DNA from: Haladaptatus sp. ZSTT2
GTDB lineage: Archaea > Halobacteriota > Halobacteria > Halobacteriales > Halococcaceae
DNA length: 64,000 nt
Direction: 5' to 3'
Assembly: GCF_037081775.1 (NCBI RefSeq)
Contig: NZ_JBAMHQ010000001.1
Coordinates: 2,294,001-2,358,000 of the forward strand
This document shows positions 2,390 through 18,646 of the stretch, piece by piece. Both the position numbers and the translations under genes were made by a program. Every line of letters starts with the position of its first letter. Within the stretch, counting starts at the first letter, position 1. The notes under the pieces were generated by a model that worked only from the letters and a program-made list of their open reading frames with translations, searched no databases and had not been told where the DNA came from.

Positions 2390-2941
2390 ATGTCACAGAC
2401 GACGGATACACTCTCAAAAGATAACATATTCGAGGTATTGAGCAGTTCTCGGCGTAGATACGTCATCTACTACCTCTACTCGCACGAGGGAACAGCGGAG
2501 CTGAAAGATTTGGCGACACATATCGCAGCGTGGGAAAGTGGTGAGCCACTCGACGCCATCACTGACGAAGAGACCAGACGAGTCTACATCTCACTCTACC
2601 AGACGCATCTGCCCAAGCTCGCAGAGTTCGACATCGTTCGCTACGATAGCGACGCCCGGATTGCAGAACTCACCCCGAAAGCAGACCAGCTGTCTCGCTA
2701 TCTCGACTCAGAGCCAGCGCCGACGCTTCCGTGGCCGCTCTACTACGCGGTGCTCTCGGTCGTGAGTTTGTTCTTGCTCGTCGGGCTGTGGCTGCAGTTT
2801 CCACCGTTCGATTCGATGAACGGCACCTCTGTGGCGTTCATCATTGCGATTGGCGTCATCGGCATCACGGTCGTCCACTATCTCTACACGCGCCAGCGCG
2901 GGGGCAATGATATGTCCTCTATTGAGTCGTTGATCGAATGA
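2390..2941 (+). CDS. DUF7344-type protein: N-terminal wHTH-like domain with two C-terminal membrane helices
   Basis: 183 residues from ATG 2390, preferred over an upstream in-frame ATG at 2324 because an AG-rich ribosome site (CAGGAG, 2378-2383) precedes it and because FEVLSSSRRRYVIYYL is the usual N-terminal part of this haloarchaeal family. Residues about 14-100 look like a winged-helix domain. Residues about 106-128 and 138-158 are membrane helices. The layout suggests a membrane-anchored DNA-binding or sensing protein; the target is unknown. It stands alone between PadR and a NUDIX gene. Confidence 0.8.
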   Translation: MSQTTDTLSKDNIFEVLSSSRRRYVIYYLYSHEGTAELKDLATHIAAWESGEPLDAITDEETRRVYISLYQTHLPKLAEFDIVRYDSDARIAELTPKADQLSRYLDSEPAPTLPWPLYYAVLSVVSLFLLVGLWLQFPPFDSMNGTSVAFIIAIGVIGITVVHYLYTRQRGGNDMSSIESLIE

Positions 2942-3005
2942 CCAACAATCGAGAGGGTCTTTAGGTCGAGAGTAACTAATGTGGCAGCTCTCGTCTTTGT
3001 TTTCC

Positions 3006-3443
3006 ATGATTTCACAATGGGTGGACACTGTCCCCAAAGCCTGTGCATACATCACCCGCGAGGTCGATGGCTGCCCGCAGTTGCTCGTGTTCCACGAGGC
3101 TGCGGTTTCCGGCCTGCAAGTCCCGAAAGGCACCATCGAACACGCAGAGTCGCCGTATGACGCCGTGCTCAGAGAGGTCGCAGAAGAAAGCGGCCTCACC
3201 GACTTCTCGGCCATCCGCCCGCTCGGTGCAGATACGTGGACGCGCGAGAAAGCAGACCGTCTGAAACACTATCGTCGATATTTCTTCCACCTTGAAGTAG
3301 ACGAACCGCGCGACGCCTGGGAGCACACCGTCACGGGCCGGGGCGAAGAGGTCGGTGACGTATATTCGTACTCGTGGGTGCCACTGCCGACCGATGCCGC
3401 GTTCAGACAGAACCTCGACGCACAGCTCTCGAAGCTCGGCTAA
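3006..3443 (+). CDS. NUDIX hydrolase
   Basis: About 145 residues. A complete Nudix box (GX5EX7REVXEEXG) is present at about residues 42-64: G, five residues, E, seven residues, REVAEESG. The glutamates bind the divalent metal used to cleave a nucleoside diphosphate linked to another group. Substrate cannot be told from sequence. An upstream in-frame ATG at 2979 would add nine residues; I prefer 3006 because the TTTAGG at about 2957-2963 would place the transcript start near 2987. It runs convergently with the HalOD1 gene, overlapping by 4 bases at the 3' ends. Confidence 0.88.
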   Translation: MISQWVDTVPKACAYITREVDGCPQLLVFHEAAVSGLQVPKGTIEHAESPYDAVLREVAEESGLTDFSAIRPLGADTWTREKADRLKHYRRYFFHLEVDEPRDAWEHTVTGRGEEVGDVYSYSWVPLPTDAAFRQNLDAQLSKLG

Positions 3444-3784
3444 CGCTGGTCTGCGAGGCGTACCGTGTTTTCGTGGTGGGGGGTAATCGAGATGTGGCCG
3501 CTACTGTGGACGCTCACCTCGTAGTTTTGGATTGAAAAGTGGATGTATCCAGAGCCACGCGGTCGCCCGTCCGGTTGGGAGTGAAACAGGCGGTCAAGGG
3601 CGTCAGGGTCGATGACGTCGTTGAGCGGGCCAAGCTCGCTCGGCGATTGCTCACTAATCGACGTGAGCGCATCCATGATTGTCGCTCCGATTCCGTCGTT
3701 GCCCGGTTCGTGGTAGCTGTGATACGTGTTTGCGTGTTGCTCGTGCAACGGTACCGTTCGGTTAGCAGTTTGGTGTGAGTCCAT
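3440..3784 (-). CDS. HalOD1 output-domain protein
   Basis: 114 residues. The C-terminal two thirds match the HalOD1 output domain of haloarchaea, with the pattern LGPLNDVIDPDALDRLF and a terminal strand region ending in YEVSVHSSGHISI. HalOD1 domains often sit behind response-regulator receivers, but this one is free-standing with no receiver domain or kinase nearby. No enzymatic activity is known. The 359-base upstream stretch is AT-rich and holds repeated motifs that may regulate it. Confidence 0.8.
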   Translation of the reverse strand: MDSHQTANRTVPLHEQHANTYHSYHEPGNDGIGATIMDALTSISEQSPSELGPLNDVIDPDALDRLFHSQPDGRPRGSGYIHFSIQNYEVSVHSSGHISITPHHENTVRLADQR

Positions 3785-4143
3785 CGTAGGTGGGGTGAAA
3801 TATCGAGTGCTCAGATACGTGGTCGCATTGTGGTGACTGCGGGTTTTCTACATTCGCTTGTGCGTCAAACCAGTATATAGTCATTCGGGTTTTGCTGGCA
3901 CATAAATACCATATCGTTTTGAAATGCTGAGTGTCAGGAATATCTAGATGGGCGTTCTAGAGGTAGTGTGTTCGGGTTAACCCCTATAGTGGTTCAAATA
4001 CCATACGTCCGAAATTTGGTATATTTGTCTGACTATCAGCTGTCGACCACATTGTTTAAATACGACTTTCTGCGCAGTCTCCGGCACACATTGCCGACAC
4101 CGGGGGCTGTCTGGTCGTCGAACGCCGGAAAATCGGTCGCCGG
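3785..4143. other. AT-rich intergenic region upstream of the HalOD1 gene
   Basis: 359 bases, visibly lower in GC than the flanks, no ORF or tRNA fold seen. It contains the perfect palindrome GGGTTAACCC at 3974-3983, a 10-base direct repeat AAATACCATA at 3904-3913 and 3996-4005, a related inverted copy near 4017-4026, and two CTAG sites at about 3943 and 3957. A reverse-strand TATA-like stretch lies near 3874-3880. These look like regulatory sites for the HalOD1 gene or the residue of an old insertion. Confidence 0.4.
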
Positions 4144-4848
4144 TTACTTCGCGTCTTTCGCGCCACGAACGGTCGCTTCGACGGCATCGACGCCCTCATC
4201 GTGGACGAGGTCGCCAACGATGACCGTATCGGAGACGGACGCCATCTCGTAGGCCGCGTCGTAATCACCGATACCACCGCCGTAGAACAGCGTCGCGTCG
4301 TCAAGGGCGTCGTGGGCTGCGTTCACCGTTTCAGGGTCACCAAGCATGCCCGAGTACTCGATGTAGACGATTTCTTGGCCGAACATGTGCTCTGCCACCT
4401 CGGCGTACGCCGCCACGTCGTCCGGTTCGAGGTCGCAGTTCGCTTGGGTGTACTCAGCGACAGAGGAGTCGGGGTTGAGGACGATGTAGGCTTCGGTCGT
4501 CGTCATCTCCCAGTCGATGCTGTCGTCTATGCGCACCCACTCTTTGTGTGCGCCGGTCATCCACGTCATATCGCCCGCGTTGAACACGACTGGGATGAGA
4601 TAGCCGTCGAGATAATCAGAGTGGACGACTGCCCCGGCGTGACTCGGCTCGATGTAAAGCGGCGTGTCGTACTTCCCACAGGCATCGACGACGCGAGACA
4701 TCTTCTCCTCGGTCATGCCCGTCGTGCCACCGATTTCGATGGCGTCGGTTCCCGTCGCACACACGTCTTCGAACGTCTCGCCGTCGGCGAGTGTCTTGTC
4801 TGGGTCGAGCTTCACGATGTGGTCCCAGTCATCCCACGGATTTCGCAT
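4144..4848 (-). CDS. Phosphoglycerol geranylgeranyltransferase (GGGP synthase)
   Basis: 234 residues, the usual length for the haloarchaeal group. A TIM-barrel prenyltransferase of the PcrB/GGGPS family, recognised by [11 protein letters not shown] at the N-terminus, [28 protein letters not shown] and the phosphate-binding GGGIGDYD and IVGDLVHD loops near the C-terminus. It joins geranylgeranyl diphosphate to sn-glycerol-1-phosphate, the first committed step of archaeal ether lipid synthesis, in the cytoplasm or at the membrane face. Starts at ATG 4848, 41 bases after the topA stop on the same strand, so co-transcription with topA is likely. Confidence 0.95.
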
Positions 4849-4888
4849 ACGCTTTCAAATCCGATGGCTGACTAAAACCCCTTCGGCC

Positions 4889-7372
4889 TCAGTCTGCTTG
4901 GGCTTGCCACTCGCGGACGCGGTCTGCGCTCACGCCCTGAACCTGGTCTGCAACGTCTTCCGGGCTGGCGTTTTTGAGGTCTTCGAGACTCTTGATACCG
5001 GCATCCTTGAGCTTGTCTGCGGTCTTCTTTCCAACCCCCGATAAATCTTCGATGTCTGTCACTTCGTTGCGCGACTTGTACTCCTCGTAGTTACAGATGG
5101 GACAGCCGAGTTGCCACGGCTCGTCGCCGCTGTGGACGACGAGTTCGGGCAAGTCGTGTTCCTCACAGCGCTCTTCGGTGACCTCAATTTCGCCGCGTCG
5201 AGGGAGCGGGAGCGAGTAGTCACAGTCTGGATAGCGCGTACAGCCGACGAGCCGCGACCCCGTCCGCAGGCGTTTGATGGCGAGTTCGCCGTCGTGTTCC
5301 TCGCCACATTCCGGGCAGACGCCGATGACTTCGTCTTCCTGTTCGTCGGCCTCGTCTGCCTTACACTGGGGGCAGCCGTGGACGAACGTCTGGCGACCGG
5401 CGAGCATCTTGACGTGGCGCAGCTCGTGGTCTTCACACGTTTCATCTAAGATGAGCGGCTTGCCCGTCGAAGGCAGTGGCAGCGTGTACGTACACTCGGG
5501 GTAGCCGTCACAGCCGACGAAGTAGGAGCCGCGTCGGGAGCGGCGCACCAGCAGGTCGTTGCCACACTCAGGGCATGGTCCGAGCGTTTTGTCCGCCTTG
5601 AGCGACTTCTGGATGTGTTCGCCAATCTCCTCGCGGGAGGCTTCGAGCTCCTCGAACACCTTTTCGAGCATCTCCCGCGATTCGGTGGTCACCTCGTCTA
5701 AGGTGGCCTCGCCGCGGGCGATTTTCTGCATGTCGGCTTCGAGTTGGCTCGTCATCTCCTCGGTGACGAGGTTCTCCGCGTAGTCTTCGCCCGCTTCGAC
5801 CACCGCCATGGCGAGGCGGGTCGGACGCGGCGGGTCGGATTCGACGTAGCCACGGTCGTACAGTTTCTCTAAGGTTTCGTGGCGCGTCGCCTTGGTGCCG
5901 ATGCCCATCTTCTCCATCGTCTCGATGAGCCGTGACTGACCGTATCTGCGCGGCGGCTGGGTCTGTTTGTAGTCGTTTCGCACGTTGCTGACCGCGAGTT
6001 CTTCGCCTTTGTCCACGTCGGGGACGAAGTTCTCGTTGGTCGAATAGTACGGATAGACGGCGTGGTAGCCGGGGTCGAGCAGGCGTTTGCCGTTTGCTTT
6101 GAGGCTGAGGCCTTCTGCCTCCGCGACCACGCGCAGGTGCTCCCACTCCGCGGGGTCTGCACACGTCGCGAAGAAGCGCCGAACGACGAGTTCGTACACT
6201 TCCCACTCTGCCTCGCTGAGTTCGGTCGGCGTCGGAATCTCTCCCGTCGGGTGGATCGGCGGGTGGTCGGTCGTCTCGCTGTCGCCGCGCGTCGGCTCGA
6301 TGGCTTCGACCTCAAGCAGCGATTTCGCGTCCTCACCGAAGGTGCGGTGGTTCTGGAACGTTTCCAGTAAGTCGCGCACGTCCAAGTCGTTCGGGTACAC
6401 CGTGTTGTCCGTCCGTGGATAGGTGATGAACCCGGAGGTGTAGAGGTCTTCTGCGATGCTCATCGCCCGCTTTGCCGAGTGGCCAAGCGACCCCGCCGCG
6501 CGGATGAACTGCGTGGTGTTGAACGGCGCTGGCGGGTCGTCGGTGCGCGTCCGGCGGTTGACCGAGGTGACCGTCGCAGCCGTCACTTTCTGGAGCGTCT
6601 CGAACACGTCTGCTGCCGTCTGTTCATCCCAGACGCGTTCTGCTTCCGTGCCGTCCTCTGCCTCGTAGAAGTACTGCGCTTCGAACGCCTCGTCGTCTTT
6701 GGTGAGGTCTGCGAACAGTTCCCAGTAGTCTTCGGGGTCGAACGCCTCGATTTCGCGCTCGCGGTCGACGATGAGTTTGAGCGTCGGACTCTGCACCCGG
6801 CCGACGCTGATGAAGTCGTTGCCCAGCTGTCGGGCCGAAAGCGAGAGGAAGCGCGTGAGCGCTGCGCCCCACACGAGGTCGATGATCTGTCGGGCCTCGC
6901 CGGAGGCCGCGAGGTCGAAGTCGAGGTCGTCCGGTTCATCGAACGCGTTGGTGACCTCGTTTTTCGTAATCGAGGAGAAGCGCACGCGCCTGACGGGTAC
7001 GTCCTCGTTCACCTCGCGGACGAGTTCGTAGGCTTCCTTGCCAATCAGTTCGCCTTCGCGGTCGTAGTCGGTCGCAATCGTGACCGTGTCTGCCTTGCGC
7101 GAGTAGAGGCGCAGGGTGCGGACGATGTTCTCTTTGGTCGCCGTTTTGACGACCTGTGCGCCGATGAGTTCGACCGGTTCGACGTCGCGCCAATCCGAGT
7201 ACTCGGGCGGGAAATCCACGTCCACGACGTGGCCGGACAGCCCGATGACGCGCTTGTCGGCCCAGCGATAGACGTTGACGCCGTGTTCGCGCTCGACGCT
7301 CGCGTGTTCGCCGGAGAGAATGTCGGCAATACGCCGGGCGGCGATGTCCTTTTCTGTAATTATCAGCTCCAC
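4889..7372 (-). CDS. topA: DNA topoisomerase I (type IA)
   Basis: 827 residues, GTG start at 7372 directly at the canonical MELIITEKD beginning. An N-terminal TOPRIM domain (about 1-140) includes the metal-binding DYDREGE. The strand-cleaving tyrosine is in FITYPRTDN near residue 318. The C-terminal third carries tetracysteine zinc ribbons (CPECGND..., CPQCK, CPECGEE..., CPICN), and the last 50 residues are helix-hairpin-helix (LSGVGKKTADKL). The enzyme relaxes negative supercoils by single-strand passage. An inverted repeat overlaps its putative promoter. GGGP synthase follows on the same strand. Confidence 0.96.
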   Translation of the reverse strand: MELIITEKDIAARRIADILSGEHASVEREHGVNVYRWADKRVIGLSGHVVDVDFPPEYSDWRDVEPVELIGAQVVKTATKENIVRTLRLYSRKADTVTIATDYDREGELIGKEAYELVREVNEDVPVRRVRFSSITKNEVTNAFDEPDDLDFDLAASGEARQIIDLVWGAALTRFLSLSARQLGNDFISVGRVQSPTLKLIVDREREIEAFDPEDYWELFADLTKDDEAFEAQYFYEAEDGTEAERVWDEQTAADVFETLQKVTAATVTSVNRRTRTDDPPAPFNTTQFIRAAGSLGHSAKRAMSIAEDLYTSGFITYPRTDNTVYPNDLDVRDLLETFQNHRTFGEDAKSLLEVEAIEPTRGDSETTDHPPIHPTGEIPTPTELSEAEWEVYELVVRRFFATCADPAEWEHLRVVAEAEGLSLKANGKRLLDPGYHAVYPYYSTNENFVPDVDKGEELAVSNVRNDYKQTQPPRRYGQSRLIETMEKMGIGTKATRHETLEKLYDRGYVESDPPRPTRLAMAVVEAGEDYAENLVTEEMTSQLEADMQKIARGEATLDEVTTESREMLEKVFEELEASREEIGEHIQKSLKADKTLGPCPECGNDLLVRRSRRGSYFVGCDGYPECTYTLPLPSTGKPLILDETCEDHELRHVKMLAGRQTFVHGCPQCKADEADEQEDEVIGVCPECGEEHDGELAIKRLRTGSRLVGCTRYPDCDYSLPLPRRGEIEVTEERCEEHDLPELVVHSGDEPWQLGCPICNYEEYKSRNEVTDIEDLSGVGKKTADKLKDAGIKSLEDLKNASPEDVADQVQGVSADRVREWQAQAD

Positions 7373-10322: not shown

Positions 10323-11810
10323 TCAGGCGTTGAGGCGCTCGCGTAACAGCTTGTTGACGGTTCCGGGGTCTGCACTGCCGCCGGTTTTCTGCATCACCTG
10401 CCCGACGAGGAAGTTGAGCGCGCTCCCCTCGCCGCTGTGGTAGTCGGAAACGGCGTCTTCGTTCTCCTCGATGGCCGCCTCGACTGCCTGCTCGACCTCG
10501 CCCGTATCGGCCTTACCGAGGCCTTCTTGCTCGACGATGGTGTCGGGGTCTGTGCCCTCGTCGAGCATCGCTCGGATGACGGTTTCCTGGGCGTGTTTGA
10601 CCGTGATTTCTTCGGTGTCGACGAGTTCGATGAGTCGCATGAACTCGTCTAAGCGGTCTGCAACGTCCGTAATCGCCATGTCGCGGTAGTTGAGTTCGCC
10701 AAGCAGGTTGTCCGCGACCCACGTCGCCGCGAGGTCGGGGTCGAACTCGGTGGCGACCTGCTCGTAGAAGTCTGCCACCTGCTTCGTCGACGTGAGTTTC
10801 GAGGCGGCTTCGGCGGAGAGGCCGTACTCCACCTGGAACCGTTCGCGGCGGGCGTGTGGGAGCTCTGGGATGTCGAGTTCTGCTTTCCAGTGGGCGACTT
10901 GCAGCGGCGGCAGGTCTGCTTCACCGAAGTAGCGGTAGTCTTTTTCCTCCTCTTTCGAGCGCATCGAGACGGTGATGCCGCGCGATTCGTCCCAGTGGCG
11001 GGTCTCCTGTTCGACCTCGCGCCCGCGCATGACGGCGTTCTTCTGGCGGGTGACTTCGTAGGCAAGCGCCTTCTCTGCGCCCTTGTGACTGGAGATGTTC
11101 TTCACCTCGGTGCGGTTCGCGGCGGCGAGGTTCTCGTCGCTAATCGACCCGTCGGCTTCGACCTTGTCCGCGCCGATGAGCGAGATGTTCGCGTCGATGC
11201 GCAGCGAGCCGTCGCGCGTGGAGTCGAACACGCCGAGGTAGTCGAGCACTTCCTCTAGCTTCTTCAGGAAGGCGCGCACCTCGCCCGGCGAGCGGAAGTC
11301 GGGCTTGGTTACGATTTCCATGAGCGGCGTGCCCGCGCGGTTGTAGTTCACGAGGACGTAGTCTGCGGTGTCGATGGAGCCGCCGACGTGCTGGAGGCTG
11401 CCGGGATCTTCCTCAAGGTGGGCGCGCTCGATGCCGATGACGCGTGCGTCGCCTTTGACGTTCACTTCGAGTTCGCCGTCTTGGCAGATTGGCGCGTCGT
11501 ACTGCGTAATCTGGAAGTCTTTGGGCAGGTCGGGGTAGAAGTAGTTTTTCCGGTGGAAGGTGGTCTCTTCGGGAATGGTCGCCTTCAGCGCCTTGCCGAT
11601 TTTGACGGCGGCTTCGACGGCTCCCTCGTTGAGGACGGGCAGCGCCCCCGGGAGGCCAAGACAGACGGGACACGTGCGCGAGTTTGGCTCCGCGTCGGCG
11701 GCGTCGGTCGAACACCCACAGAAGATTTTCGTGGCAGTCTCTAGCTGGACGTGGACCTCTAACCCAATCACGACGGCGAGGTCCTGCGTCTCGGCAGCTT
11801 GTGCGGTCAT
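10323..11810 (-). CDS. gatB: Aspartyl/glutamyl-tRNA amidotransferase subunit B
   Basis: 495 residues, full length. The N-terminal GLEVHVQLET, the cysteine set around CGCSTDAADAEPNSRTCPVCLGLPG, the FYPDLPKDFQITQYD block, and the C-terminal YqeY-like tail (LNFLVGQVMQKT) identify GatB. With GatA and GatC it converts Glu-tRNA(Gln) or Asp-tRNA(Asn) to the amidated form; GatA and GatC are not in this window. Start ATG 11810, with CTTTAG about 30 bases upstream on the reverse strand acting as a plausible TATA for a leaderless message. Single gene with its own promoter. Confidence 0.96.
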   Translation of the reverse strand: MTAQAAETQDLAVVIGLEVHVQLETATKIFCGCSTDAADAEPNSRTCPVCLGLPGALPVLNEGAVEAAVKIGKALKATIPEETTFHRKNYFYPDLPKDFQITQYDAPICQDGELEVNVKGDARVIGIERAHLEEDPGSLQHVGGSIDTADYVLVNYNRAGTPLMEIVTKPDFRSPGEVRAFLKKLEEVLDYLGVFDSTRDGSLRIDANISLIGADKVEADGSISDENLAAANRTEVKNISSHKGAEKALAYEVTRQKNAVMRGREVEQETRHWDESRGITVSMRSKEEEKDYRYFGEADLPPLQVAHWKAELDIPELPHARRERFQVEYGLSAEAASKLTSTKQVADFYEQVATEFDPDLAATWVADNLLGELNYRDMAITDVADRLDEFMRLIELVDTEEITVKHAQETVIRAMLDEGTDPDTIVEQEGLGKADTGEVEQAVEAAIEENEDAVSDYHSGEGSALNFLVGQVMQKTGGSADPGTVNKLLRERLNA

Positions 11811-11936: not shown

Positions 11937-11947
11937 TTCTTATATAC
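11937..11947 (+). promoter_or_regulatory. Promoter of the DUF3100 operon
   Basis: CTTATATAC at about 11939-11947 is a good archaeal TATA box, about 43 bases before ATG 11989, predicting a leader near 20 bases. The region around it (11880-11950) is AT-rich. Confidence 0.5.
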
Positions 11948-11988: not shown

Positions 11989-12840
11989 ATGACTTCTGAC
12001 TCATCACGGTGGGAGCCAATCCGCACCGCCGGGCGCTGGTCTGCACACCTGCGGACCCACGGAACCGTTTTCGCAATCGTCGTCGTCGCAGAACTCATCG
12101 GAACACAGGTCTTCCCCCTCGGACCGGGGCAGGTCGTTTTACTCCCGATGCTGTTCGCCGTCATCTTCGGCATTCTGCTCAGCTACAGCGTGCTCGGCAA
12201 AGTCGTCGAGCCGCTTCGCAACGTCGTTTCGAAGGACGTGAGCAAGATTGCCTCGCCGCTGCTCATCATCGCGCTCATGCCACTCGGCGTGAAGTACGGC
12301 TCACTCGTCGCCCCTGCCTTCTACAGTCTCGTCGAAGCAGGCCCGGCGTTCGTCCTCCAAGAGTTCGGCAACCTCGCCACGATTCTGTTCGCGCTGCCAC
12401 TCGCCCTTGCGCTCGGACTGAAGCGCGAAGCAATCGGTGGGGCAGTGAGCATCGCTCGGGAGCCGACCCTCGGCGTCATCACCGACAAGTACGGAATCGA
12501 CTCGGCTGAGGGCCGTGGCGTTCTCGGTACCTACATGACCGGAACCGTCCTCGGCACCGTCTTCTTCGGCATCCTCGGCGGGTTCGCCCCCGCAACGGGC
12601 CTGCACCCACTGTCGCTGTCGATGGCCTGTGGGATGGGGTCTGCGAGCATGATGACGGCGTGTTCGTCGTCACTCGCAAACGTCGTCACGACCGTCCCCA
12701 AAGAGGACATCCTCGCATTTGCAAGCACGAGCAACCTGCTGACCGGCATCACGGGCCTGTACATGGTGCTGTTCATCGGTCTGCCGGTCATCAACCGACT
12801 CTATGCGAAACTCGCTCCGCTGTTCGGAGGTGACGACTGA
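11989..12840 (+). CDS. DUF3100 family membrane permease
   Basis: 283 residues, eight or more hydrophobic helices starting at about residue 26. The conserved stretch HPLSLSMACGMGSASMMTA and a REPTLGVITDKYG loop are typical of DUF3100 proteins. The family is uncharacterised, but its topology is that of a transporter. It overlaps the next gene by one base (TGATG) and stands with a second small membrane protein and an M20 amidohydrolase, which suggests import of an amide- or peptide-linked substrate that the hydrolase then cleaves. That role is inferred from the operon, not known. Confidence 0.82.
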   Translation: MTSDSSRWEPIRTAGRWSAHLRTHGTVFAIVVVAELIGTQVFPLGPGQVVLLPMLFAVIFGILLSYSVLGKVVEPLRNVVSKDVSKIASPLLIIALMPLGVKYGSLVAPAFYSLVEAGPAFVLQEFGNLATILFALPLALALGLKREAIGGAVSIAREPTLGVITDKYGIDSAEGRGVLGTYMTGTVLGTVFFGILGGFAPATGLHPLSLSMACGMGSASMMTACSSSLANVVTTVPKEDILAFASTSNLLTGITGLYMVLFIGLPVINRLYAKLAPLFGGDD

Positions 12841-13298
12841 TGGAAACCTCAGAGTTCACCACAGAATCGCTGAAAATGTTGCTCGTCATTGGTTTCCTTA
12901 CGCTCACGGCGAACACCATCGCCACGGACACCGGCCCGATTGCGGCCCTCCCGGGAATGCTCATCATCATCGCCATCGGCCTCGCCGCACTCTTGCTCGG
13001 GCGGGTCGTTCCGCTCGACCTTCCGGCGTTCGCCTACGCCATGATAATCTCGTTCTTGCTGGCGATTCCGTTTTCGCCAGTGCAGGGCGTGTTTCTCGAA
13101 TACGTAGAACGGATCGGCTTCCTCGCTACGACGACGCCGATTCTCGCCTACGCCGGACTCTCGATTGGTCTGCAGACCGGGCGCATGAAAGAGGTGAGTT
13201 GGAAGCTCGTCATCGTCGCCGTGTTCGTCTTCTTCGGGACGTTCTTCGGCTCTGCCCTCATCGCAGAACTCATCTTGAGCGCACAGGGGATTATCTGA
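12840..13298 (+). CDS. Small membrane protein, predicted partner of the DUF3100 permease
   Basis: 152 residues with about five hydrophobic segments (roughly 13-28, 33-53, 59-80, 95-115, 120-145). I do not recognise a named family. ATG 12840 overlaps the DUF3100 stop by one base and the stop is directly followed by the GTG of the amidohydrolase, so all three are translationally linked. The tight coupling suggests it is the second subunit of a two-protein transporter. Confidence 0.8.
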   Translation: METSEFTTESLKMLLVIGFLTLTANTIATDTGPIAALPGMLIIIAIGLAALLLGRVVPLDLPAFAYAMIISFLLAIPFSPVQGVFLEYVERIGFLATTTPILAYAGLSIGLQTGRMKEVSWKLVIVAVFVFFGTFFGSALIAELILSAQGII

Positions 13299-13299
13299 C

Positions 13300-14622
13300 G
13301 TGACCGACGCCCTCAAACGGCGCGTCTGTGCCGCTATCGACGACCACCGCGAGGAGATTATTGCACTCGCACAGTCGATTCAAGCCGAACCGGAACTCGG
13401 CTTCAAGGAAGTCGAAACCACGAAGAAGGTCGCCGCGGTGTTCGAATCGCTCGATTTAGAGGTGGAGACGGACATCGCCATCACCGGCGCTCGCGCTCGC
13501 GCTGGCTCTGGTGAGTTCACCGCCGCGGTGTTCGGCGAGCTCGACGCGCTCGTCAACCCCGAACACCCGCTCGCAGATCCCGAGACCGGCGCGTGTCACG
13601 CCTGTGGCCACCACGCGCAGGTGGCGAATTTGGCCGGCACGGCGTTCGGCCTCATCGCAAGCGACGTGGTAGACGAACTTGACGGCGAAGTCGAGTTCAT
13701 TGGCGTCCCCGCAGAGGAGTATCTCGACCTTGGCTATCGCCGCGAACTGGTCGAATCCGGTGACATCGAGTTTTTCGGCGGGAAACAGGAACTCATCCGT
13801 CGCGGCTATCTCGATGACATCGACATGGCGATGATGATGCACGCGGGCAGCGACGAACCCGACCGCGTCATCACGAGCAACTTCTCGACCAACGGGTTTG
13901 TGGGCAAATTCGTCACCTACACCGGGAAAGAAGCCCACGCGGGGGCCGCTCCCGAAGAAGGTATCAACGCGCTCAACGCCGCGATGATTGGGATGAACGC
14001 GGTTCACGCCCAGCGTGAGGTGTTCAAAGACGACGACGCCGTGCGCGTCCACCCGATTATCACGAAGGGTGGCGACGGCGTGAACGTCGTCCCGAGCGAC
14101 GTGCGCATGGAGTCGTACGTTCGGGCGAAAACGGTGGAAGCCGTCACGGAGGCAAACGAGACGGTCAACCGGGCGCTCACATCGGGCGCGCTCGCGGTCG
14201 GCGGCGACATCGAAATCAACGACTTCCCCGGCTACATGCCGCTTCGAACCGACCAGACCATCGTCTCAGCGTACGACGAAAACGCCCGCGAACTGGTGGG
14301 CGAGGATGCGGTCACACCGGGCCGTCCGCACATCACCGGTTCGACAGACATGGGCGACGTGACGCAGATTCTGCCGGGCATCCACCCGTGGACGGGCGGT
14401 TTCGAGGGCAGCGTCCACTCTCGGGAGTTCGGCGTCGTAGACGAGGAGATGGCGTACATCCTGCCGGCCAAACTCACCGCCTGCACGCTGGTTGACTTGC
14501 TCACCGACACCGAAGCCATGGACACCTTGCGGGCCGAAAAGGCCGAAAAACTCTCCTCCGACGAGTATTTGTCCATGATTCGGTCGATTCGAGCCGACGT
14601 CGCCGAATCCTACCGCGACTAA
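13300..14622 (+). CDS. M20 family amidohydrolase (AbgB/HipO-like)
   Basis: 440 residues, GTG start at 13300. The metal-binding CHACGHHAQ block is near residue 99, the catalytic Glu pair in VPAEEYLD near 138, and a dimerisation domain with KEAHAGAAPEEGINALNA near 205. This arrangement matches M20D aminoacyl/aminobenzoyl hydrolases, which cut amide bonds of N-acylated amino acids or p-aminobenzoyl-glutamate. No signal peptide, so cytoplasmic. It closes the operon after the two membrane genes, fitting uptake followed by hydrolysis. Confidence 0.9.
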   Translation: MTDALKRRVCAAIDDHREEIIALAQSIQAEPELGFKEVETTKKVAAVFESLDLEVETDIAITGARARAGSGEFTAAVFGELDALVNPEHPLADPETGACHACGHHAQVANLAGTAFGLIASDVVDELDGEVEFIGVPAEEYLDLGYRRELVESGDIEFFGGKQELIRRGYLDDIDMAMMMHAGSDEPDRVITSNFSTNGFVGKFVTYTGKEAHAGAAPEEGINALNAAMIGMNAVHAQREVFKDDDAVRVHPIITKGGDGVNVVPSDVRMESYVRAKTVEAVTEANETVNRALTSGALAVGGDIEINDFPGYMPLRTDQTIVSAYDENARELVGEDAVTPGRPHITGSTDMGDVTQILPGIHPWTGGFEGSVHSREFGVVDEEMAYILPAKLTACTLVDLLTDTEAMDTLRAEKAEKLSSDEYLSMIRSIRADVAESYRD

Positions 14623-14729: not shown

Positions 14730-14999
14730 ATGACTCGCGGCAACCGTGTCGAGGAACTCGAAACGCGCGTGAAAGAACTCCAGGCCTCCGTCTCAGGGCT
14801 GACCGACGAACTCATCGAGACCAAAGAGCGTGTCAAAGCGCTCGAGGAGGAGGTACAACCAGAAGATCTGCTCGACCGGAAACTCACCCGAAAAACCGAA
14901 GCCGAGGACACCTCCGAAGCCACTAAAGGGCAGGAGAGCGAGGATGCAGACAGCACCGACGAGGAATCGACGCAGACGGACGACATCATCGTCGCATAA
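14730..14999 (+). CDS. Small acidic coiled-coil protein upstream of smc
   Basis: 89 residues. Residues about 5-50 form a heptad-like coiled coil (VEELETRVKELQ, TKERVKALEEEV) and the C-terminal half is a disordered acidic Ser/Thr/Glu/Asp tail. TTTATGG at 14700-14706 lies about 26 bases before the start, so the message is probably leaderless. A haloarchaeal family (DUF7518-like) often found before smc; function unknown. It ends 74 bases before smc and may share its transcript. Confidence 0.75.
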   Translation: MTRGNRVEELETRVKELQASVSGLTDELIETKERVKALEEEVQPEDLLDRKLTRKTEAEDTSEATKGQESEDADSTDEESTQTDDIIVA

Positions 15000-15073: not shown

Positions 15074-18000
15074 ATGCATATCAAAGAAATCGTCCTTGAC
15101 AACTTCAAAAGCTTCGGGCGCAAGACGCGCATTCCGTTCTACGAGGACTTCACCACGGTCTCTGGCCCGAACGGGTCGGGGAAGTCGAACATCATCGACA
15201 GCGTGCTGTTCGCCCTCGGACTCGCTCGAACGCGCGGTATTCGCGCGGAAAAACTGACTGACCTTATCTACAACCCCGGCGACGACGGCGACGCCCGCGG
15301 CGACGAAACCCGCGAAGCCAGCGTCGAAGTCGTCCTCGACAATTCAGAGCGGACGCTCAGCCGTCAACAGGTCGTGAGCGCCGCTGGCACCGAGAACATC
15401 GGTGAAGTAGACGACATCTCCATCCGTCGACGGGTGAAGGAGACGCCCGAGAACTACTATTCGTACTACTATCTGAACGGCCGTTCGGTGAACCTTTCTG
15501 ACATTCAAGGGCTGCTCGCCCAAGCGGGCATCACACCTGAAGGCTACAACGTCGTCATGCAGGGCGACGTGACCGGCATCATCCAGATGACGCCGTATGA
15601 ACGACGGGGCATCATCGACGAAATCGCCGGTGTGGCCGAGTTCGACGCGAAAAAAGACGCCGCCTTCGAGGAACTCGAAGTCGTCAAAGACCGCATCGCA
15701 GAAGCCGAACTCCGCATCGAAGAAAAACAGGCCAGACTCGACCAGCTCAAAGACGAACGCGAGACAGCGCTCGAATACAAGGGCTATCGCGAAGAGAAAC
15801 AGGAGTACGTAGGCTACCTGAAAGCCGCGGAACTCGAAGACAAGCGCGCGGAGTTAGCGAAAACCGAAAAGCGCATCGAGCGCCACGAAAAGAAGCTCGA
15901 ATCGCTCCAGTCCGACTTAGACGAAAAGCAGGGCCGTGTGCTTCGCTTAGAGGAAGAACTCGAAACCCTCAACGCCGAAATCGAGACGAAAGGCGAAGAC
16001 GAGCAACTGCGAATCAAGCGCGAAATCGAGGAGGTCAAAGGCGAAATCGCCCGCCTCGAAGACGCCATTTCGGCGGCCGAAGAACGGATTCAAGAGGCAG
16101 AACAGCGCCGCCGCGAGGCGTTCATCCAAATCGACCGTAAACAGGAGACGGTCGATGACGTCGAAAGCGAAATCCGCGAGACGAAAGTCGCAAAGGCCTC
16201 CGTCGTTGCTGAGATTCAGCAACACGAAGCCAACCTCGCAGAGTTGCAGGCAGAAATCGACGCGGTGGACACCGAGTACGACGAGGTGAAAGCCGAACTG
16301 ACCGAGAAACGCGAGGCCTTGGAAGAAGCGAAGACGGCGAAAAACGCCACCCAACGCGAGCAAGACCGACTGCTCGACGAGGCACGACGGCGCTCGAACG
16401 AGCAGGCAGAAAAGCAGGCAGAAATCGAGACCGTTCGCGAGGAGGTTCCCGCGCTCAAAGCCGCCGTCCGCGACTTAGAGGACGAACTTGAGAAGGCGAA
16501 GAAGAATCGGGAAAACATCTCACAGGTCGTAGACGACCTCAAACAGCAAAAACGCGAGTTGCAAGACGAATTAGACGAGGTCGAACAACAACTGCGCGCC
16601 CGCCAACAGGAGTACGCAGAACTCAACGCACACGCAGACGAGTCCGGCGATTCGTCTTATGGGCGCGCAGTCACGACCATCCTGAACGGGGACCTCGATG
16701 GGGTTCACGGCACGGTTGGCCAACTCGGCGGCGTCTCCCAGCAGTATGCGACGGCGTGTGAAACCGCCGCAGGAGGCCGACTCGCGCACGTCGTCGTCGG
16801 TGACGACGGCATCGGTCAGCGGTGTATCGAGTACCTGAAACGCCGGAACGCGGGTCGCGCGACGTTCTTGCCCATCAACAAGATGCACACGCGGCGCTTG
16901 CCGAGCGTGCCGAACCACGACGGTGTCGTTGACTTCGCCTACAACCTCGTTGACTTCGACAAAGAGTACGCGGGCATCTTCTCGTACGTCCTCGGCGACA
17001 CGCTTGTCGTGGACTCCATCGAAACCGCCCGCGACCTGATGGGTGATTTCCGACTCGTCACGCTCTCTGGCGAACTCGTCGAAAAGAGCGGCGCGATGAC
17101 CGGTGGGTCGTCCAGTGGCTCGCGCTACTCGTTTTCGAAATCCGGCAAGGGCCAACTCGAACGCGTCGCGGAGAAAATCGCCTCGCTCGAAGACGAGCGC
17201 CGGGAGTTGAACGAGGAGATTCGTGGCGTCGAAGAGCGCCTTGACGACGCCCGTGACCGGAAAACGGACGCGACCGACCAAGTCCGGGACATCGAAGCCG
17301 ACGTAGAGCGCGTCCAAGGTGAACTCGACAGCACGGACGAGCGCATCGAAGCGCTCGAAGCGCGCATCACGGAAATCGAGAGCGAGCGCGAAGACGTAAA
17401 CGAGGAGATGCAGTCGCTCGAAGCCGACCTGACGGCCCACGACGAGCGCATCGCGGAGATTGAGTCGGCCATCGCGGAGCTGGAATCGGAACTCGCAGAC
17501 TCGAAGATTCCACAGCTCACGAACGAGATGGACGAGATTCGCGCGAGCATCGAGGAGTACGAGGCTCAACAGGACAAGTTCGACGCGCGGCTCAACGAAC
17601 TCGGCTTGGAGAAACAGTATGCAGAGGAGTCCATCGAAGACCTCCATGGCGAAATCGAGTCCGCCCAGAACAAGAAGGCAGACCAGCAAGAGCGGATTGC
17701 CGACCTCGAAGGCAAAATCGAAGACCAGCACGCCGTTCTCGAAGAAAAAGAGAGCCAAGTCGAGGACTTAGAAGACGAACTCGCAGACCTCAAAGCAGAG
17801 CGCGAGGAACTCAAAGGCGACCTCAAGGCAGCCAAACAGACCCGCGACGAGGCCCGCGAGAAGGTTTCAGGGGTCGAATCCAAACTCGACAGCGCGAAGA
17901 GCGCCGCAGACCGCCTCGAATGGGAGGTTGACGAACTCGCCGCGCAGGTGGGTGAGTACGACCCCGAGGAGATTCCAGACCACGACGAGGTCAAACGCAC

Positions 18001-18646
18001 CATTGGCCGTTTAGAGCGGAAGATGGAGGCCTTAGAGCCGGTCAACATGCTCGCCATCGACGAGTACGACGAGGTCAAAGACAGCTTAGACGACCTCACT
18101 GACAAGAAGGGGACGCTCGTAGACGAACGAGAGGCCATCAACGACCGCATTGAGTCTTACGAATCCTTGAAAAAGGAGACGTTCATGGACGCCTTCTCGG
18201 ACATCAACGACAACTTCGAGGAGATTTTCGCAAGCCTCTCGCGTGGGTCTGGCACCTTGCATCTCGAAAACGAGGCCGACCCGTTCGACGGCGGCCTGAC
18301 GATGAAAGCCCAGCCGGGCGACAAGCCAATCCAGCGCCTCGATGCGATGTCGGGTGGGGAGAAATCGCTTACTGCGCTCGCGTTCATCTTCGCGCTTCAG
18401 CGCTACAACCCCGCGCCGTTCTACGCGCTCGACGAGGTGGACGCCTTCTTAGACGCGGTGAACGCCGACCTCGTCGGCGAGATGGTGGACGAACTCGCGG
18501 GCGACGCCCAGTTCGTCGTCGTCTCCCACCGCTCTGCGATGCTCGAACGCTCAGAGCGCGCCATCGGCGTCACGATGCACGATGACAACGTGAGCGTCGT
18601 GACTGGTATCGACCTGAGCAGTCAGGAGGTGCCCGCCGATGACTGA
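15074..18646 (+). CDS. smc: Chromosome segregation protein SMC
   Basis: 1190 residues, full length. Walker A GPNGSGKS at residues 31-38, two long coiled-coil arms (about 170-510 and 680-1020), a hinge at about 540-675 ending in the glycine-rich GAMTGGSSSGS, the ABC signature MSGGEKS near 1090, and Walker B ALDEVDAFLD near 1116. It forms the ATP-driven ring of the condensin complex with kleisin ScpA, whose gene overlaps its 3' end by 8 bases. An ScpB gene is not seen here. Confidence 0.97.
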   Translation: MHIKEIVLDNFKSFGRKTRIPFYEDFTTVSGPNGSGKSNIIDSVLFALGLARTRGIRAEKLTDLIYNPGDDGDARGDETREASVEVVLDNSERTLSRQQVVSAAGTENIGEVDDISIRRRVKETPENYYSYYYLNGRSVNLSDIQGLLAQAGITPEGYNVVMQGDVTGIIQMTPYERRGIIDEIAGVAEFDAKKDAAFEELEVVKDRIAEAELRIEEKQARLDQLKDERETALEYKGYREEKQEYVGYLKAAELEDKRAELAKTEKRIERHEKKLESLQSDLDEKQGRVLRLEEELETLNAEIETKGEDEQLRIKREIEEVKGEIARLEDAISAAEERIQEAEQRRREAFIQIDRKQETVDDVESEIRETKVAKASVVAEIQQHEANLAELQAEIDAVDTEYDEVKAELTEKREALEEAKTAKNATQREQDRLLDEARRRSNEQAEKQAEIETVREEVPALKAAVRDLEDELEKAKKNRENISQVVDDLKQQKRELQDELDEVEQQLRARQQEYAELNAHADESGDSSYGRAVTTILNGDLDGVHGTVGQLGGVSQQYATACETAAGGRLAHVVVGDDGIGQRCIEYLKRRNAGRATFLPINKMHTRRLPSVPNHDGVVDFAYNLVDFDKEYAGIFSYVLGDTLVVDSIETARDLMGDFRLVTLSGELVEKSGAMTGGSSSGSRYSFSKSGKGQLERVAEKIASLEDERRELNEEIRGVEERLDDARDRKTDATDQVRDIEADVERVQGELDSTDERIEALEARITEIESEREDVNEEMQSLEADLTAHDERIAEIESAIAELESELADSKIPQLTNEMDEIRASIEEYEAQQDKFDARLNELGLEKQYAEESIEDLHGEIESAQNKKADQQERIADLEGKIEDQHAVLEEKESQVEDLEDELADLKAEREELKGDLKAAKQTRDEAREKVSGVESKLDSAKSAADRLEWEVDELAAQVGEYDPEEIPDHDEVKRTIGRLERKMEALEPVNMLAIDEYDEVKDSLDDLTDKKGTLVDEREAINDRIESYESLKKETFMDAFSDINDNFEEIFASLSRGSGTLHLENEADPFDGGLTMKAQPGDKPIQRLDAMSGGEKSLTALAFIFALQRYNPAPFYALDEVDAFLDAVNADLVGEMVDELAGDAQFVVVSHRSAMLERSERAIGVTMHDDNVSVVTGIDLSSQEVPADD

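Follow-up and report, generated by a model that had tools for sequence, protein, structure and literature searches.

A DUF3100 membrane protein and its small partner as a candidate two-gene transporter for N-acylated amino acids, associated with M20 hydrolases in archaea and bacteria

Operons joining a transporter to a hydrolase, and carriers made from two genes, are already known kinds of system. The two membrane genes of the malonate carrier MadL-MadM, a large and a small one, belong to a catabolic operon, and in ectoine catabolism two unrelated deacylase families, DoeB and DoeB2, are named for one N-acetyl amino acid. For the M20 hydrolase HmrA and the Xaa-Arg dipeptidase PM20D2 we know of no transporter partner. 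In Bacillus subtilis ScmP, YhaA and YtnL are M20 N-acetylcysteine deacetylases, and the activity of ScmP on N-acetylserine is just 2.8% (PMC12757645, a paper in which the word 'transporter' does not occur). The system considered here lies in a window (the whole stretch of DNA that was analysed) of 64,000 nucleotides from a chromosome of the haloarchaeon Haladaptatus sp. ZSTT2 (positions 2294001-2358000); it consists, on the forward strand, of the genes for a DUF3100 membrane protein of 283 residues (11989..12840), a membrane protein of 152 residues (12840..13298) and an M20D amidohydrolase of 440 residues with a GTG start (13300..14622). Searches of 5.39 million PMC papers for DUF3100 and PF11299 found none that names them, and searches on N-acetyl amino acid transport or deacylation and on clusters of L-threonine 3-dehydrogenase (TDH) and glycine C-acetyltransferase (KBL) gave, judged by titles and abstracts, none on this set; the TDH-KBL gene context published in PMC4349456 concerns other genes.

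It is proposed that the DUF3100 protein and the 152-residue protein are the large and the small subunit of one secondary transporter of the CitS/NhaP elevator kind, which would take up an N-acylated amino acid, most likely a small beta-hydroxy amino acid (such as serine or threonine) in N-acetylated form, and that the M20D enzyme, a putative cytoplasmic N-acyl-amino-acid deacylase, would then strip the acyl group and deliver the free amino acid to metabolism. This account as a whole stands, in our judgement, an even chance of being right. Both the direction of transport, import, and the deacylation step are deduced: a steady amide-cutting partner and neighbours that act on beta-hydroxy amino acids suggest that the pair takes up N-acylated amino acids, which would then be deacylated. 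The new elements are the carrier-subunit role proposed for the small protein, the spread of the pair and the narrowed substrate class. The proposal provides a first testable role for DUF3100 and for a small membrane protein without a family, which occur in archaea, in several bacterial phyla and on some Escherichia coli plasmids; should both genes encode a single carrier, the annotation of the small protein ought to name it as the other subunit. Guided by the neighbours, a search for the substrate can be confined to a few commercially available N-acyl amino acids, and, if the proposal is true, N-acetylated hydroxy amino acids would be a nutrient with an uptake route of their own.

The large protein matches PF11299 with 298.2 bits (gathering cut-off 27; E 4.9e-89; residues 32-273 of 283) and gave besides a single sub-threshold chance match in Pfam; the small protein has no match in Pfam or NCBIfam scans. 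In an evenly drawn sample of 292 Halobacteria genomes from 77 genera, PF11299 was found in 18 genomes of six genera (Haloferax volcanii, a named control genome, is also positive), and a profile of the small protein, A2, matches exactly these 18, each profile once per genome; A2 was built from neighbours of DUF3100, and the absence of unlinked copies is valid for the relatives that it can detect. The wider set included 103 DUF3100 stretches (46 named genome loci, 22 plasmid-record regions and 35 genome stretches; handles beginning with L denote single loci), some of which repeat genomes of the named set and which form 84 clusters at 95% DUF3100 identity. In all of the 103 archaeal and bacterial loci the small protein adjoins DUF3100 or is fused to it, the weakest match having an E of 8e-16. 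Its gene lies directly downstream of DUF3100 in 93 loci, and the remaining 10 contain a single-frame fusion (L054, L058, L062, L074, L076, L079, L080, L082, L083, L084), found in Brachybacterium, Variovorax, Klebsiella, Psychrobacter, Agrobacterium, Comamonadaceae, Arthrobacter and Burkholderia; on the DUF3100 tree, which has 85 rows (the 84 clusters and the window), the fused state amounts to three changes. Chance does not explain why the two membrane genes stand together, as they do in 103 of 103 related loci. The organisation resembles that of MadL-MadM in that the large and the small gene are always encoded together, although those proteins belong to other Pfam families.

An earlier sequence-only reading of the locus had seen in the two membrane proteins a two-subunit importer feeding the hydrolase, and had raised the question of whether the 152-residue protein always accompanies DUF3100; it does, in the same 18 of 292 genomes and in every locus, and co-occurrence, adjacency or fusion, joint absence and the carrier-like fold of the fusion all speak for a single unit. 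From sequence and structural models, the most fitting interpretation of DUF3100 and the small protein is a single secondary transporter encoded in two parts. A comparison of the small protein with DUF3100 by hhalign for a repeat between them (probability 31, E 5e-4) was too weak to be used. In a metagenome assembly (L046, 4443-5492) the DUF3100 protein has about 70 extra residues between positions equivalent to 178 and 183 of the window protein, either an assembly error or an insert.

Structure prediction points in the same direction. The model of the natural fusion L054 (predicted local distance difference test, pLDDT, 88.4; predicted template modelling score 0.86) was built from an alignment of 45 rows; of the 21 rows for the small protein, 14 are partly misaligned at the N-terminus. 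Its best VIA match is CitS (9lsk; Z 14.5, 302 residues, root-mean-square deviation 4.4, model residues 17-467), followed by NhaP, SOS1, NapA, NHE/NHA2/SLC9C1, NhaA, ASBT-type carriers and SbtA; the 50 rows shown all belong to the CitS/NhaP/ASBT fold group and span both halves of the fusion. The window DUF3100 protein modelled alone (pLDDT 80.7) reached a best Z of 7.7 over 171 residues; the two runs differ in protein and in model quality, and the comparison is a support rather than a clean test. These models suggest a CitS/NhaP-type elevator fold that would be complete only with both halves present. Residues G215, G217, S218, S220 and M221 of DUF3100 are invariant in an alignment of 27 sequences, and the GMGS motif (215-218, with three of these residues) falls in a helix break of the window model, as it does at 220-223 of the L054 fusion. 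The predicted likeness to the sodium-citrate symporters of the 2HCT family, members of the NhaP/NapA/ASBT group, extends over the whole length of the fusion model; the putative DUF3100 carrier differs from them in being split over two genes in 93 of the 103 loci, in lacking a 2HCT domain (Pfam up to E 1, both membrane proteins) and in showing no detectable sequence similarity. A sequence relation to solved carriers was dropped, since searches of the PDB with the profiles A1, A2 and A3 returned, at an E limit of 10, 0, 25 and 1 matches, each of them with an E higher than 0.1.

The locus itself offers a view of the pair as a movable piece. A divergent gatB, DUF3100, the small gene, the M20 gene, a small open reading frame and SMC follow each other in the window, in L093, in Halogranum L022 and in five named Haloferax loci. 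In the window this frame, which stands outside the system, is made of gatB upstream (10323..11810, minus strand) and, downstream on the plus strand, of an 89-residue open reading frame (14730-14999) and an SMC-like gene (15074-18646); the names gatB and SMC are presumptive. The same gatB-SMC frame is present in five genomes of the genus g23 (L213-L217), where the hydrolase gene lies 100-152 bases from gatB and the membrane pair is absent, neither membrane gene being traceable there at E 1e-4; six other genomes of this genus carry the pair. By these sequence comparisons the DUF3100 pair is gained or lost as one piece. The gatB-SMC locus is in itself a ready natural comparison, with genomes of one genus that have or do not have the pair.

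A window-type hydrolase (E 1e-90) is found in 25 haloarchaea, 11 with DUF3100 and 14 without; therefore, the hydrolase is separable and has a use of its own, and seven of the 18 haloarchaea with the pair do not have a window-type hydrolase. Consequently, the tight coupling claimed for all three genes by the sequence-only reading applies to the two membrane genes, which are inseparable, but not to the hydrolase. A fixed three-gene order across archaea and bacteria was likewise rejected, the hydrolase gene being upstream, replaced or missing in some loci. Because the enzyme stands without the pair in 14 of the 25 haloarchaea, five of them at the same locus, its substrate may be internal, and the pair would in that case export an amino acid or organic acid freed by the hydrolase; the fold says nothing on direction. 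The adjacent catabolic genes described below, for conversion of threonine to glycine and acetyl-CoA and for serine deamination, fit instead a supply of nutrients in several lineages, and we hold export to be improbable. Beside the pair-less hydrolase no consistent other transporter was seen (10 neighbours in 5 of the 14 loci: MatE, EamA, an FAD oxidoreductase or none).

The hydrolase matches the amidohydrolase model TIGR01891 with 181.5 bits (cut-off 153.75) and has no hydropathy segment over 1.5. Its closest solved relatives are HmrA (3ram; E 1.7e-27) and then PM20D2 (7yh4, 8xzc; E 9.4e-27), which are remote (about 96-100 bits over 440 residues); the HACGH, PAEE and MMMH motifs and a C-terminal HS align with the metal-site residues of both, and these are presumably the metal ligands. 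The YxeP structure 1ysj, which we take to be that of ScmP, also matches the window hydrolase (E 2.8e-19); this M20D relative is a proven deacetylase of an N-acetyl amino acid (PMC12757645), a point in favour of the proposed deacylation, whereas HmrA and PM20D2 resemble the window enzyme more closely.

The rank of PM20D2 directly after HmrA gives ground to another explanation, in which the hydrolase would be a dipeptidase of the cytoplasm, supplied by the pair with an imported dipeptide or a similar amide. To our knowledge, however, dipeptide uptake relies on other transporter families, and the enzymes that replace M20D in some loci (see below) belong to families that take their names from the deacylation of individual amino acids; we regard a dipeptide as rather unlikely. 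Aminobenzoyl-glutamate, the other substrate suggested with N-acyl amino acids by the sequence-only reading, would make the set similar to AbgT-AbgAB of E. coli, and an aminobenzoyl-glutamate utilisation protein (3io1) is indeed among the hydrolase matches. That match, E 2.7e-9, is much weaker than those to HmrA and PM20D2, neither membrane protein has an AbgT domain in Pfam, and the operon contains one M20 gene only and not paired AbgA/AbgB genes; on domain content and match ranking this substrate was rejected and is hardly credible. Of the former proposal, the two-subunit carrier and, as the better of the two substrates, the N-acyl amino acid are retained.

Regarding the proposed uptake and deacylation of N-acylated amino acids, the frequency of the hydrolase beside the pair is informative. 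An M20D gene lies within 5.8 kb of the pair in 65 of the 84 clusters and in 1 of 58 random windows taken from haloarchaea and Clostridia only, many pair loci coming from other groups. The controls were 60 random windows of 12.8 kb from carrier genomes, two of which (L192, L206) overlapped DUF3100 loci and were dropped. M20D is therefore the usual companion of the pair. Of the 85 rows of the DUF3100 tree, 29 have a window-type hydrolase as partner, 35 have another M20D close by and 3 have one further off; a DapE/ArgE-type M20 accompanies 7 and a DoeB/EutE-like enzyme 1. The other 10 show no enzyme of the tested kinds; three of them are on short or cut contigs (L040, L058, L152) and seven are not (L019, L031, L071, L072, L074, L082, L087). 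The window-type hydrolase is common to haloarchaea, Chloroflexota, Clostridia and Bartonella, and several M20 subfamilies occur in different clades of the tree; a sweep of 251 Chloroflexota genomes returned a single one, already known.

Where M20D is missing, the sequence comparisons indicate that another deacylase family can stand in. In Sulfitobacter a DoeB/EutE-like enzyme is found (290.6 bits to TIGR02994, cut-off 402.7), and in haloarchaea a DapE/ArgE-type M20 beside the pair; the latter type is near 9 clusters and 0 of 58 controls, a clear difference for this marker by itself. M20D and the stand-in families share the chemistry of cleaving an amide of an amino acid. The parallel with ectoine catabolism is that relatives of both DoeB and DoeB2 lie beside DUF3100 pairs; the neighbours are nevertheless below the cut-offs (DoeB 290.6 of 402.7; DoeB2 367 and 340 of 550) and are not named DoeB or DoeB2, and the window hydrolase itself scores 53.1 bits against the 550 of DoeB2 (NF038260). 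In Variovorax L074 a gene for ACC deaminase (4048-5064) and one for an M14-type peptidase (2549-3640) diverge from the fused gene, perhaps another swapped partner enzyme.

The presumed preference for serine or threonine derives from neighbour genes in other organisms. TDH and KBL directly follow the hydrolase in Firmicutes L037 and L039; in L046 tdh follows it and then the contig ends, and both steps come after the hydrolase in Dehalococcoidia L033, with a TDH of unrelated type (7ol1, E 1.3e-138). In Psychrobacter L079 the annotation places TDH and KBL immediately behind the fused transporter gene. The pairs of Klebsiella L076, A. leguminum L080 and Clostridia L133 have an L-serine ammonia-lyase in their vicinity, and those of Sulfitobacter L069 (with Rid) and, again, L133 a threonine/serine dehydratase. 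An extra copy of serine hydroxymethyltransferase (SHMT) stands beside the pair in 5 of 7 sampled haloarchaea without a window-type hydrolase (L095, L097-L100) and at the named loci L020, L021, L023, L031 and L032, and an SHMT relative is found in Clostridia L135. A serine or threonine derivative is assigned to the window because its hydrolase is related to those preceding TDH-KBL, with 45-50% identity. The four kinds of marker together occur in 18 of 84 clusters and in 1 of 58 controls (Fisher p 3e-4), with 11 changes on the DUF3100 tree. Taken singly, SHMT is clear (9 against 0), and significance is not reached by TDH/KBL (5 clusters, no control; p 0.07), serine ammonia-lyase (3 clusters, no control; p 0.20) or the dehydratase (2 clusters, 1 control). 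These neighbours would be accounted for just as well by a dipeptide that includes threonine or serine.

A number of points weigh against the uptake of an N-acylated hydroxy amino acid by this system. The serine/threonine markers were picked after the loci had been viewed; with the five query-source clusters left out they are in 13 of 79 clusters against 1 of 58 controls (p 0.0035), and both p values treat related loci as independent, with no correction for kinship. Moreover, 66 of the 84 clusters are without any of the four markers, no serine/threonine enzyme was seen beside the window operon, and the genome of the window has no KBL match and a single SHMT, located elsewhere; the threonine route through TDH and KBL was consequently rejected for the window itself. 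The nearest solved relatives of the hydrolase are HmrA and a dipeptidase and include no proven deacetylase, and the enzyme persists without the pair, at the gatB-SMC locus of the five g23 genomes and in 14 of the 25 haloarchaea that have it. As to the fold, a best Z of about 14 also occurs for helical models without a clear match, and Foldseek with the fusion model found nothing that reached E 0.001, its top rows mixing MFS carriers and CitS at E above 0.004.

A HIBADH-type dehydrogenase is likewise clear among the single markers, near 11 of 84 clusters and 0 of 58 controls (L070, L071, L073, L075, L079, L080, L082, L084, L085, L101, L149), and it is accompanied by an aldehyde dehydrogenase in all of them except L080; together these neighbours possibly represent a serine-type oxidation route. 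The same count is compatible with a transporter that carries free hydroxy amino acids or organic acids generally and has the hydrolase as a frequent but incidental neighbour, as are Chelatococcus L071, Comamonadaceae L082 and Haladaptatus L072, which possess the transporter and no adjoining hydrolase of the tested kinds. However, an M20D gene that accompanies 65 of 84 clusters, and just one of the 58 controls, can scarcely be called incidental, and several M20 subfamilies across clades are found; this explanation has, in our opinion, a low probability. Other neighbours of the pair are off the theme, namely DUF1177 in five clusters, agmatinase, alanine racemase and ACC deaminase. In the five clusters, from Clostridia and relatives (L042, L043, L044, L064, L145), the DUF1177 gene is close to both the pair and an M20b-type hydrolase; in Neobacillus L149 it is further off. 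A DUF1611 gene (DgcN-like, under the NCBIfam cut-off) is near the pair in haloarchaea without a window-type hydrolase (L031, L095, L097, L019/L089).

A bolder form of the proposed import of N-acylated amino acids would see in the pair an unrecognised, widely shared family of carriers for N-acetylserine and N-acetylthreonine, with the design of an elevator transporter in two parts and devoted, in archaea and bacteria, to the salvage of caps from N-terminally acetylated proteins; we consider it unlikely, though worth stating. In haloarchaea 14-19% of the proteins carry an acetyl group, exclusively on N-terminal serine and alanine (PMC2946573), and N-acetyl caps would for this reason be present in haloarchaeal surroundings. 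That such proteins are the source of the imported substrate is a guess.

Regarding expression and maintenance of the window operon, the positions of the three genes given by the sequence-only reading agree exactly with a re-reading of the open reading frames: all three are intact, the DUF3100 stop and the start of the small gene share one base (TGATG, at 12840), and a 1-base gap precedes the GTG of the hydrolase at 13300. The TATA box reported near 11940 is likewise there as a putative TATA-like promoter element, TTATATA (11940..11946, plus strand), about 45 bases 5' of the DUF3100 start; it is kept 5' of the orthologues in L093, L024 and L027 and reads TTTTATA in L022, and no similar box was seen upstream of the DUF3100 gene in the more distant L030. 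Relative to the copy in L093, from another species of the same genus, the ratios of nonsynonymous to synonymous substitution (dN/dS) are 0.069 for DUF3100, 0.090 for the small protein and 0.066 for the hydrolase, values indicating that purifying selection acts on all three genes. On a Haladaptatus plasmid an AtuA-family gene lies upstream of the set (L030, 3054-4478). Finally, the three-gene set is present in 8 of 5426 complete E. coli genomes, always plasmid-borne, and on one E. coli plasmid (L065, NZ_CP050863.1) it is found near F4-type fimbrial genes.

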